This document shows positions 7,601-54,483 of a stretch of DNA of 54,483 nt, piece after piece. How positions within the stretch are numbered: the stretch's first letter is position 1; each line of letters starts with the position of its first letter. The notes beneath the pieces are model-generated. The model did no database searches and was not told the origin of the DNA. It saw nothing but the letters and a program-made list of their open reading frames with translations. The stretch spans positions 1 to 54,483 of the forward strand of contig JAFGFM010000095.1 in NCBI GenBank assembly GCA_016931115.1. The letters are read 5' to 3'. This stretch comes from Deltaproteobacteria bacterium (lineage in GTDB: Bacteria; Desulfobacterota; DSM-4660; Desulfatiglandales; HGW-15). The position numbers and the translations under genes are program-made.

Positions 7601-8518
7601 TTACTGCGCATCACATTGTTCTGCATAGCATATGGCGTTTCTTGTGTTCTTAGCCCTGTAAAGGGCATTATCTGCCTCAGACAGGATCTCATCAATACCC
7701 TTTTTCCCATCAGCCTTTGTTACACCTATGCTAACAGTAACAGTTAAATCACCTGATCTTGTCCCTATTTTTGTATCAGCTATAACCCTGTGCAGCCTGG
7801 TAAAACATGTCATCTTGTTTATATTGATTTCTGATGAAGGCAATATAATCAAAAATTCCTCTCCTCCATACCTGCCAATAAAGTCATAATCTCTCAGGTT
7901 TGAGTCCATGATCCGGGCAAAACCCTGAAGAATTTCATCACCTGTCTGGTGGCCATATCTGTCATTTATCAACTTGAAATGATCGAGATCACACATGCCT
8001 ATGTGGAGTATGTTACCGTTTCTCTGGACCCTGGAAAGCTCTTTTGCGAGCATTTCAAGAATAGCCTTCCTGTTATAAAGTCCTGTAAGGGAGTCATGCA
8101 TGGCCTCATATATAAGCGAATGTTTGGCCTTTTCCAGCTCCGACTGTATCTCCACCATTCGTTTCCCAACATTGATTCGTGCCTGAAGCTCTTCATTGTC
8201 ATAGGGCTTTACAATATAATCATTTGCTCCTGCATTAAGCCCTTCAACTATATATTTTTTTTCACTCTTTGCTGTAAGCATAATTATATAGATCGAATCA
8301 TTAGCCTGATCTTTTCTAAGTATCCTGCATACATCTATGCCGGATAGAACCGGCATGCTCCAGTCAAGAAGGGCGAGCTTGGGCCCATCAGGCTGTGACA
8401 GAATATCCATTGCCTGCTGCCCGTCAACCGCACATACTACTTCATAACCCCATTTGGCAAGTATTGCCCCCAGGATTGTCCTTGATGTCAAGTCATCTTC
8501 TGCTACTAATACTTTCAT
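7601..8518 (-). CDS. Response regulator diguanylate cyclase (REC-GGDEF)
   Basis: This 305-residue PleD/WspR-like protein makes the second messenger c-di-GMP when activated. The REC domain (about residues 1-120) has the acidic pocket AEDD and the phosphoacceptor Asp52 in LLDWSMP, with the conserved lysine in VKPYDNEE. The GGDEF domain (about 140-300) carries an intact active-site GGEEF motif, preceded at the correct distance by an RxxD inhibitory site (RDYD), so product inhibition is expected. Its ATG overlaps the stop of the large CHASE hybrid kinase by 4 bases, so the two are translationally coupled and form a cognate phosphorelay pair. No EAL domain is present. It is cytosolic. Confidence 0.94.
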
Positions 8519-38461: not shown

Positions 38462-38732
38462 AAAAAGGACATCACACCTTTTCAAGTTATTATAACCAAG
38501 AATGATTCTATTTCATGCATAAAACATATTTTAGATCTGCAATTACAGTGCCACTTTAAAAATTATAAATCAGACGTGATAACAAAGCGTTACAGATAAC
38601 AGATAAATATGAAACAGGCGCAGAGACAAAAAGACCAAACCAAAGCCAAAATTTTGACTGATAATTTGATGTGGAAAACAGCCTGTTTTTAGGTTGCTTT
38701 TATCAAAGGATATAGAATATATTTGCTAAAAA

Positions 38733-38787
38733 TCAGGGGATGGAGTCCCCCTATTAACCGCTCGGGCCGGGCTGATGACTCCTGCTG
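38733..38787 (+). promoter_or_regulatory. Fluoride riboswitch (crcB motif)
   Basis: The sequence fits the crcB RNA consensus: GGGGATGG at 38736-38743, the closing arm GTCCCCC (38745-38751), the conserved ATTAACCGCT (38752-38761), and the 3' element CTGATGACTCCTGC (38772-38785). The stem GGGG/CCCC encloses the conserved AUGG loop bases that pseudoknot with the downstream part. It is placed about 90 bases before crcB, the usual partner. Fluoride, held by magnesium ions, should turn expression on. Recognition is by eye, without a covariance search. Confidence 0.93.
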
Positions 38788-38813
38788 GCTGAGATGCATG
38801 GCAGGGGATTTAT

Positions 38814-38874: not shown

Positions 38875-39252
38875 ATGTTTAAAAATCTAATAATCATTAT
38901 GTTGGGAGGCAGTCTTGGGGCAATAAGCCGATACCTGATAGGGCTGATGGCTGCCAAGACATGGGGAGTGAACTTCCCATGGGGCACACTTATTGTGAAC
39001 ATGGCCGGGTGTTTTTTAATAGGGCTGATTTTTGCCCTTGCAGAGAGTGTCCGCCTGCTGACCCCGAGCGTTCGTCTTTTTCTTATTACCGGTTTTTTAG
39101 GGGCTTTAACCACATTTTCATCTTTTTCACTGGAAACAACAAATGCTGTCCGCGCCGGCCTTACACTTCAACCCATTATGAATATCATGATAAATAATCT
39201 GGGCGGTTTTGGGTTAACCTTTCTTGGTTATTGGCTGGGAAGCCTTAAATAA
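38875..39252 (+). CDS. crcB: Fluoride ion channel CrcB/Fluc
   Basis: This 125-residue, four-helix protein of the Fluc family exports fluoride as a dual-topology dimer in the inner membrane. The signatures are GGSLGAISRYLIGLM near the N-terminus, WGTLIVNMAGCFLIGL with the pore asparagine, GFLGALTTFSSFSLET with the phenylalanine box and central sodium-site residues, and a final GGFGLTFLGYWLG helix. It follows a fluoride riboswitch and is immediately followed by a DUF190-CBS gene. A single crcB gene implies a homodimer. The ribosome site is weak (AGAGAT). Confidence 0.97.
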   Translation: MFKNLIIIMLGGSLGAISRYLIGLMAAKTWGVNFPWGTLIVNMAGCFLIGLIFALAESVRLLTPSVRLFLITGFLGALTTFSSFSLETTNAVRAGLTLQPIMNIMINNLGGFGLTFLGYWLGSLK

Positions 39253-42442: not shown

Positions 42443-42673
42443 GATGACCTTCCTTTATATATAAAAAAATCTCTAAACTACATCTGTAGCAGTAGAAAAT
42501 TATCACCAACAATTGGCAATAATTTCCTTTTTGAGGCCAGAACTATAGGAAGTTCGGCCTTTTATGTCAACATAAAATTTCCTTTTGCTTTGTGGGAGAT
42601 TAATCATCCATGAAAAGGAAACAGTGCCTGATCTATATGAAATAAGGATATTTTATGGTTGTATGACTATATC

Positions 42674-49523: not shown

Positions 49524-49687
49524 TGAAGGCTGAAGGCTGAAGGCTGAAAGCTCAAGGCTCAAAGCTCAAGGCTCAAAGCTCTAAGCTCTAAGCTCAAGGC
49601 TGAAAGCTCAAGGCTGAAAGCTCAAAGCTCAAGGCTCAAGGCTCAAAGCTCAAGGCTCAAGGCTGAAAGCTCAAGGCTCAAGGCTAA
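49524..49687. repeat. Array of degenerate 7-bp repeats
   Basis: About 23 head-to-tail heptamers of the form AAGGCTC / AAAGCTC / AAGGCTG fill the gap between the convergent mgtE and cyclase genes. No spacers are present, so it is not CRISPR. The same words appear in a shorter tract at about 33566-33625. It is likely formed by slippage and could vary in length between strains. Confidence 0.92.
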
Positions 49688-52876: not shown

Positions 52877-53364
52877 TTTTATGTTGGTTGTGGGTAGTTA
52901 TGGAATATCGTGACTATTTATAGTAAATTTGTTATATATCATAATATGGGGTCCGTTTAATTTTGATTAATAAAGACTAATTGGCACTGGTATCATTTGA
53001 TATTGTGTACTAAGAAAATGCTATGGCTTTTGTGATGTCTCGGCTTTAAACCCACTTAAAATGTTGAATATATTTTTTTACGTTTGTATTCATAATTCTC
53101 TCCTTACATTGTTTGTGATTAAATATAAGAAAGCCCCAATAAAAAACCAATATACAAAATTATATTTGACCATCTATCACAAAAGATAAAAAAAAGTTAC
53201 CAAAATGGATTAATTGTATCTACGATATCAGCTATCCAGGGCTGTATTTATCTACAAAATAATACATGATGATCTAATCAGCCATTATATTTAATTACAT
53301 GACTATATTGGTTATTTTTTACATTTTTTTAACACTTTAATTACATTTTTTTACTTTTTTGTTA
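52877..53364. other. AT-rich intergenic region without recognised features
   Basis: This 490-base stretch lies between the tRNA-Leu terminator and the promoter of the TonB receptor leader. It is very AT-rich, with no open frame of protein character and no strong hairpin. I see nothing to annotate. Confidence 0.6.
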
Positions 53365-53393
53365 TTGACACAATCAGTATATTCTTTTAACAT
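53365..53393 (+). promoter_or_regulatory. Sigma70-type promoter of the TonB receptor leader
   Basis: TTGACA (53365-53370), exactly 17 bases, TAACAT (53388-53393). Transcription would start near 53400, exactly at the first base of the structured RNA, giving a 5' leader of about 600 bases before the receptor ATG. Confidence 0.8.
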
Positions 53394-53397
53394 CACA

Positions 53398-53489
53398 GAT
53401 GCCAAAGCTTAGACGAAAGTCTAAGACCCTACAAGGCCGGATATGCCTCTTTGAATTCCTCCCAGAATTCCTCCGGGCTATCCGGCCTT
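53398..53489 (+). ncRNA. Structured 5' leader RNA, riboswitch candidate (GEMM-like)
   Basis: Two strong helices follow the promoter. Hairpin 1 is CTTAGAC-GAAA-GTCTAAG (53408-53425), a perfect 7-bp stem with a GNRA tetraloop, preceded by GCCAAAG. Hairpin 2 has an 11-bp perfect stem, AAGGCCGGATA (53433-53443) / TATCCGGCCTT (53479-53489), extended by GCC/GGC, with a large terminal loop holding two copies of GAATTCCTCC (53453-53462, 53465-53474). A GAAA-capped stem beside a longer helix recalls c-di-GMP-I (GEMM) riboswitches. However, the diagnostic GACGCAAAGCC joiner reads GACCCTACAAGGCC here, so identity is open. The CCTCC words could pair with a ribosome site. Confidence 0.6.
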
Positions 53490-53995
53490 TCCAAATAAAA
53501 AGCATTCAGTTCATTATTATCGATTAAATTAATATTATGTTCATATTTTAGAAAATATTCATCGAATTGATATCTAAAAATATATTCCATGAATATTTTG
53601 TTCAATTACTAAAAAATACCTTGATTTTAATTTTGGTTCAATTTAGAGTTAATTCAATGCTTGAAATAATATGTGGGGCTTTGGCATATATTTATAAGCT
53701 ATGATTTACAGATTTATGGTTTTTGTTTTACGGATTTTCTCTCCAGATCGTAGTTGAGATTTTTCTGTGACTACCAGTTTTTCAGCAAATCATTGCTTTC
53801 CAAATTTAAGAAAAGGCGATCAGTATTTCCTAAAGGATTTTACTTTCGCACTGGGAGAGGTGGGCCAACTTATTGGCTAACTTGTAGTTTTTTTACAAAA
53901 GATGGGCCTTTCAGGTGAAGGCAATATTTTCAGGGGACTTTTGAAAATAAAATATTCACCTTTTTTACTTTTAATTTTTATTTTGGAGGATTTAA
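53490..53995 (+). other. Remainder of the long 5' leader of the TonB receptor
   Basis: About 500 AT-rich bases lie between the structured RNA and the receptor start. The only noticeable elements are a short GCCAA-CTTA-TTGGC hairpin (53865-53878) followed 10 bases later by a T-run (53889-53894), which could be a weak terminator, and the strong GGAGGA site (53985-53990). No protein-like frame is seen. Confidence 0.5.
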
Positions 53996-54483
53996 ATGAG
54001 CAGTAGAATTGGTTTATGTTGTAAAAACTGGTATCTTAGTTGCTTTATGCTGTTGGCGTTATTTATCTTCAGCATGGCAACCCCAATCTTTGCAGCAGAT
54101 GAAGAGGAGTTCATGCTGGAAGAGATCACTGTAACTGCTGAAAAGAGGGAAGCAGAATTACAGAAGGTGCCTATTGACATCACTGTACTTAGACCTGAAG
54201 AGATGGACCGTTCGGGTGTGTATTCAATCTATGACCTTAAAAAGGTGATTCCTGATCTTGATACCGCTACACAGACGGGTAACCAGGTAATGGTCAGTAT
54301 CCGTGGCGTTGGTGGCGCAGCAGATACATTATGGAACCCGATACATGAAACAACAACCGCTATGCACATTGATGGTATTCAGCTTACCAGAGCAAATGGT
54401 TTTGACAATATGTTCTTTGATCTCCAGAGGGTTGAGGTGCTTAAAGGCCCCCAGGGTACCCTTTATGGCCGTGGATCAACCGC
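53996..54483 (+). CDS. TonB-dependent outer membrane receptor (5' part, runs off window)
   Basis: The first 162 codons are visible. A signal peptide (about residues 1-33, hydrophobic core FMLLALFIFSMATPIFA) is followed by a TonB-box-like segment EEITVTAEKREAELQKVP and the plug domain: VYSIYDLKKVIPDL, VMVSIRGVGG, MHIDGIQLTRANG and LQRVEVLKGPQGTLYGRGST. The plug pattern is that of receptors often labelled iron-complex or small-molecule receptors. The beta-barrel lies beyond the window end. The ATG at 53996 has a perfect GGAGGA 6 bases upstream. It is probably controlled through the long structured leader starting near 53400. Its ligand cannot be inferred from the plug. Confidence 0.93.
   Translation, partial: MSSRIGLCCKNWYLSCFMLLALFIFSMATPIFAADEEEFMLEEITVTAEKREAELQKVPIDITVLRPEEMDRSGVYSIYDLKKVIPDLDTATQTGNQVMVSIRGVGGAADTLWNPIHETTTAMHIDGIQLTRANGFDNMFFDLQRVEVLKGPQGTLYGRGST

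Follow-up and report, generated by a model that had tools for sequence, protein, structure and literature searches.

The receptor gene and its leader

The window (the whole stretch of DNA that was analysed, 54,483 nucleotides long) carries near its end the beginning of a gene for a TonB-dependent receptor. As the original prediction had it, this gene has a long leader: the reading frame opening at ATG 53996 encodes a TonB Plug domain, and about 600 bases of leader precede it, ending at the Shine-Dalgarno sequence GGAGGA (53985-53990). The gene continues on contig G000:C1 of the genome, where its product matches residues 213-840 of the congener's receptor at 90% identity. This congener, the sole other species in the genus, conserves the promoter and the hairpin pair along with most of the leader and the receptor gene. 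TonB receptors are importers of scarce nutrients. Among solved structures, the Plug domain is nearest to the pesticin, colicin I and siderophore receptors, and the receptor scores closer to siderophore and pesticin receptors than to BtuB. Given this resemblance, iron- or siderophore-related signals would be natural candidates for an input to the leader. The features of the locus, observed or predicted, are the following.

53318-53355, + strand: 13-bp direct repeat TTACATTTTTTTA, two copies at one step of ~22 bp (sequence; kept in the congener)
53365-53393, + strand: sigma-70-type promoter TTGACA-17-TAACAT, predicted start about 53398-53401
53399-53407, + strand: P1a, 5' strand AUGCCAAAG, predicted to pair with 53679-53687
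53408-53425, + strand: P2 hairpin, 7 bp, GAAA tetraloop (fold and congener comparison)
53427-53433, + strand: P1b, 5' strand CCCUACA (ACCCUACA in the congener's pairing), predicted to pair with 53672-53678
53433-53489, + strand: P3 hairpin (fold, congener alignment, compensatory changes)
53492-53597, + strand: variable spacer within P1, 57.5% identical, 19 gap columns
53672-53687, + strand: P1 3' strand UGUGGGG-CUUUGGCAU, predicted to close domain A (folds, consensus; 96.3% identity)
53696-53798, + strand: domain B, more conserved than any other part; predicted AAGC-AUGAUUU / AAAUCAU-GCUU helix with stems inside
53853-53862, + strand: putative anti-terminator 5' strand GGGAGAGGUG, pairing with CACCUUUUUU (53957-53966)
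53906-53922, + strand: hairpin GCCUUUCAGGUGAAGGC, a predicted alternative fold that overlaps the 5' arm of the terminator
53913-53966, + strand: terminator-like hairpin AGGUGAA...UUCACCU with U-tract (z -4.2 and -4.7)
53985-53990, + strand: Shine-Dalgarno sequence GGAGGA (sequence)
53996-54481, + strand: TonB-dependent receptor, N-terminal part with Plug (domain match; continues on another contig)

The promoter boxes (TTGACA 53365-53370, a 17-nt spacer, TAACAT 53388-53393) match the consensus at 10 of 12 positions and are kept in the congener. The score is unremarkable when taken alone, several similar chance matches being expected in AT-rich DNA. Transcription should start at about 53399, the first base of the two-hairpin RNA, as would be expected from the earlier claim of a consensus promoter firing at the first base of a structured element, for which the promoter sequence was confirmed. 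Directly upstream, the direct repeat TTACATTTTTTTA is a possible operator. A mobile element bounded by ATGCCAAAGC terminal repeats was considered and discarded: it is single copy and a hairpin lies inside one arm.

Predicted structure of the leader

P2, the first hairpin, is a perfect 7-bp stem (CTTAGAC-GAAA-GTCTAAG, with GAAA at 53415-53418). P3, the second, rises from a perfect 11-bp helix of AAGGCCGGATA and TATCCGGCCTT (53433-53443 with 53479-53489), above which follow a U bulge, GCCU/GGGC, GAAUUC/GAAUUC and an apical loop CUCCCA, and it carries GAATTCCTCC twice (53453-53462 and 53465-53474). The layout first described, a GAAA-capped perfect hairpin followed by an 11-bp perfect helix with two GAATTCCTCC copies, is thus present in the sequence, and P2 and P3 together have a predicted minimum free energy of -40.0 kcal/mol, compared to -19.6 ± 3.1 in dinucleotide shuffles (z -6.65; 0 of 200). 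In the alignment with the congener, hairpin 1 and both joiners are invariant. In P3, UA/AU becomes CG/UA via four base changes, so that two pairs are changed on both sides and none is broken. These compensatory changes are suggestive of structure; two such pairs, from two sequences, are not significant in a pair shuffle control (112 of 500), and most leader pairs are invariant between the two sequences.

According to folds that rest on two sequences, the structural unit is larger than the two hairpins of the original prediction. The joiners AUGCCAAAG and CCCUACA are predicted to pair with UGUGGGG-CUUUGGCAU, about 240-290 bases downstream, in a 16-17-bp helix (P1) that encloses P3 and from whose 5' strand P2 branches. 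The same P1 was obtained from independent folds of both species' leaders and from the two-sequence consensus, the sole difference being a U-G pair in the window versus U-A in the congener, which also gains one extra A-U pair. When the 3' part was shuffled and the 5' part kept fixed, the joiner pairing was matched in 3 of 300 trials for the window and 0 of 300 for the congener. Since the joiners are paired in both independent folds, and beyond what shuffles give, what looked like the joiners of an aptamer are probably the strands of a long-range helix. Domain A as a whole (53399-53687) folds with z of -6.4 and -9.9 in the two species, and domain B with z of -2.5 and -1.5, modest values that are marginal over shuffles. 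Reading motifs in window-sized pieces meets its limit here, where a GEMM-like two-hairpin element would be part of a larger long-range fold.

Just 5' of the ribosome-binding site, the arm UUCACCUUUUUU is common to a terminator-like hairpin (AGGUGAA 53913-53919 and UUCACCU 53955-53961, then a U-run) and to an anti-terminator, and the two are predicted to be mutually exclusive in both species. Forced into the terminator or the anti-terminator, the RNA has energies of -36.0 and -37.3 kcal/mol in the window and of -34.2 and -34.2 kcal/mol in the congener, which makes the two states near-isoenergetic. Both complements of the shared arm co-occur in only 5 of 5000 and 13 of 5000 shuffles (0.1-0.3%). 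The basal stem of the terminator is AU-rich, with three G-C pairs out of seven, and would be weak as an intrinsic terminator. Nothing was found that connects domain A to the output switch; a kissing interaction of the P3 apical loop CUCCCA with UGGGAG (53852-53857) in the anti-terminator was rejected, a match of this kind occurring in 10.7% of shuffles and thus not above chance. The CCTCC copies had been proposed to mask the distant GGAGGA. They can indeed pair with it, but this masking has no specific support because any anti-Shine-Dalgarno string would match, and on the predicted folds terminator-based attenuation ahead of the ribosome-binding site is the better-supported output.

Conservation and distribution

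Homology with the congener starts at 53218 and extends through the receptor gene, whereas the genes further upstream are unlike (CNNM/CBS in the congener where the window has a cyclase gene and tRNAs), which argues that the leader belongs to the receptor gene. The stretch between mgtE and the cyclase gene (about 49528-49675) belongs to a dispersed repeat family with many partial matches across the congener genome. Identity between the two species is 93.6% in element A, 96.3% in the P1 3' strand, 96.3% in domain B, 87.3% in domain C and 57.5% in the spacer. For comparison, 4-fold sites are 77.9% identical in the receptor gene and 64-72% identical in seven other genes. Against this background the leader domains appear to be under constraint and the spacer does not, with the qualification that high conservation is also seen in some intergenic stretches elsewhere in the two genomes (91.6% and 88.5%). 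One of them, at 42443-42673 between the MFS and lgt genes, is 91.6% identical between the species, above the 4-fold sites, and may hold another conserved noncoding element.

Beyond the locus itself, the element was found in the congener alone among 148 related genomes (90% identity over 143 nt), and neither BLAST nor a pattern search gave further copies in its own genome. A covariance model of the element (R1), run on 85 genomes of the order and class and 395 of the phylum, returned only the two congeneric loci convincingly; two weak matches (E 0.017 and 0.033) have coding-like surroundings and look like chance. For the remainder of the leader, the 85 genomes of the order and class held no convincing match outside the genus, and no copy of the element was seen at the paralogous TonB receptor loci examined in both genomes. 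A pattern search of 84,980 species genomes and viral contigs gave five matches, all in unrelated coding-like surroundings and without the P3 helix, and the element was not found in plasmids and phages. Diverged relatives may have escaped both searches, since the pattern tolerates no change in the joiners and R1 derives from two sequences. As for the receptor, 297 phylum genomes held no relative outside the genus at E <= 1e-60, and a protein search of the genome-contig collection returned no relative.

Searches against known RNA families

At gathering thresholds, Rfam 15 (4227 models) left the leader locus unmatched; its hits elsewhere in the window were two tRNAs and a fluoride riboswitch. The latter (38727-38791, 53.9 bits) is an ordinary one that precedes the genes for CrcB (38875-39252) and a DUF190/CBS protein. 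A permissive scan of 141 nt produced no match to c-di-GMP-I or c-di-GMP-II at E <= 10 and five weak matches (miRNA, sRNA, CRISPR repeat, serC leader), far under their gathering scores, and the whole 631-nt leader matched no family at E <= 5, cobalamin included. Together with the folding z-score of the two hairpins, this supports the suggestion that the receptor's leader contains a structured RNA of no described class. As a positive control, the c-di-GMP-I model (RF01051) was run on both genomes. Seven loci of this genome and four of the congener's pass the cut-off; the leader locus is absent from this genome-wide scan even at E <= 1. The seven loci include L108, L109, L112 and L113.

Discussion

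We regard the leader as best read as a genus-restricted, single-copy orphan cis-regulatory RNA of a known general kind. It is the leader of one gene and is conserved with that gene, as is general for attenuating leaders. That its ~600 nt regulate the TonB-dependent receptor in cis by attenuation, under the control of domains A and B, is a proposal to which we give roughly even weight for and against. Transcription would begin at about 53399 and would yield domain A as a closed module (53399-53687), with P1 interrupted on its 5' strand by P2 and enclosing P3 and the variable spacer; the conserved middle domain B would come next, followed by the two-state domain C as output. In the first state, pairing of AGGUGAA with UUCACCU ahead of the U-tract would end transcription just before the ribosome-binding site. 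In the second, GGGAGAGGUG would capture CACCUUUUUU and the receptor gene would be transcribed. As sensors of a signal, perhaps a small molecule, an ion, a protein or an RNA, domains A and B would most likely bias the choice between these two states. The sequence, its conservation, the fold statistics and the two compensatory pairs are observed, while termination itself, the sensor role of the two domains and the direction of control are inferred. If what the leader senses were the compound taken up by the receptor, or a shortage of it, the RNA would offer a clue to the substrate of a receptor that is otherwise uncharacterised. RNA control of TonB receptors beyond the vitamin B12 riboswitches appears to be little described, and searches of an open-access library gave no match.

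Alternatively, the leader could set the stability or translation of the mRNA, with P1 sequestering the 5' end as a protective stem and the CCUCC loops binding the Shine-Dalgarno sequence, a protein or a small RNA. P1 does start at the predicted first base, and the two CCUCC copies of P3 can pair with GGAGGA 53985-53990; however, CCUCC pairs with any Shine-Dalgarno sequence, and this explanation accounts neither for domain B nor for the conserved terminator and anti-terminator with their shared arm, so that we hold it to be possible but on the unlikely side. Similarly unlikely, in our view, is a new genus-restricted riboswitch class, in which P1 and P2 would form a long-range three-way-junction aptamer with P3 as a CCUCC-loop arm, sensing the receptor substrate or the need for it and attenuating the receptor.

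Another option is that domain A, or its P2-P3 part alone, constitutes an independent small RNA, while the receptor uses a promoter further downstream. Anti-Shine-Dalgarno loops such as those present here are typical of base-pairing small RNAs, a consensus promoter of its own lies exactly at the 5' end, and the sequence directly after P3 is unconserved. Yet the 3' flank of P3 is UUUCC alone, with no terminator; the 3' half of P1, which lies another 180 nt along, is conserved; and the leader in its entirety accompanies the receptor gene, neither a second copy nor another genomic setting having been found. This makes a separate small RNA doubtful. Very improbable is a leader peptide or small leaderless protein from the 42-codon frame opened by ATG 53399 (MPKLRRKSKTLQGRICLFEFLPEFLRAIRPF...): the frame is open in both species and its ATG is at or adjoining the predicted first base, but three of the four codons that differ specify another amino acid (I to T, F to N, I to V), and of the six base changes four keep P3 paired. 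There is no Shine-Dalgarno sequence, and the frames diverge past P3. A 41-codon frame at 53793-53918, which a 3-nt indel leaves open in both species, shows mostly non-synonymous changes, has no Shine-Dalgarno sequence and is probably a coincidence.

The divergent GEMM (c-di-GMP-I or cGAMP) riboswitch of the original prediction we consider barely credible, despite the CCAAAG before the first hairpin, which recalls GCAAA, since the control search found the seven canonical members of the genome and not the leader. The diguanylate cyclase cited in its favour is present (a response regulator-GGDEF gene at 7601-8518), so that c-di-GMP signalling exists, but at 45 kb from the leader it has no bearing on the input. 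The c-di-GMP-I joiner between P2 and P3, GACGCAAAGCC, is conserved and single-stranded and holds the A47 equivalent. It is seen in L109 and L110, whereas the leader has ACCCUACAAGG there, predicted to be paired; likewise, these canonical loci show GGGACGCAAAGCC where the leader RNA has AGACCCUACAAGG. A GNRA tetraloop, as in c-di-GMP-I, is found on P2. By eye, no 11-nt tetraloop receptor was seen in P3, and the changing P3 pairs sit at that height.

The likeness to c-di-GMP-I (GEMM-I, RF01051) is one of layout: two adjacent hairpins, the first GAAA-capped and the second longer, at the start of the leader of a membrane-protein gene. The leader differs from it in the lack of a covariance-model match and of GACGCAAAGCC, in having its joiners in a predicted 16-17-bp long-range helix, and in a P3 apex where CCUCC is repeated and the stem is GAAUUC/GAAUUC. 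Members of this class, too, can have a long expression platform that includes a terminator, as in GEMM Bc1 (PMC11218506).

The cobalamin riboswitch also regulates an outer-membrane TonB/BtuB receptor from its leader. The type of target is the same, while the present leader matches no cobalamin model at E <= 5. Finally, although its ~600 nt, its position outside all Rfam 15 families and its restriction to one genus set it apart from transcription-attenuating riboswitches and leaders, it resembles them in its predicted general plan, a structured 5' domain and then, directly ahead of the ribosome-binding site, a terminator and an anti-terminator that exclude each other.
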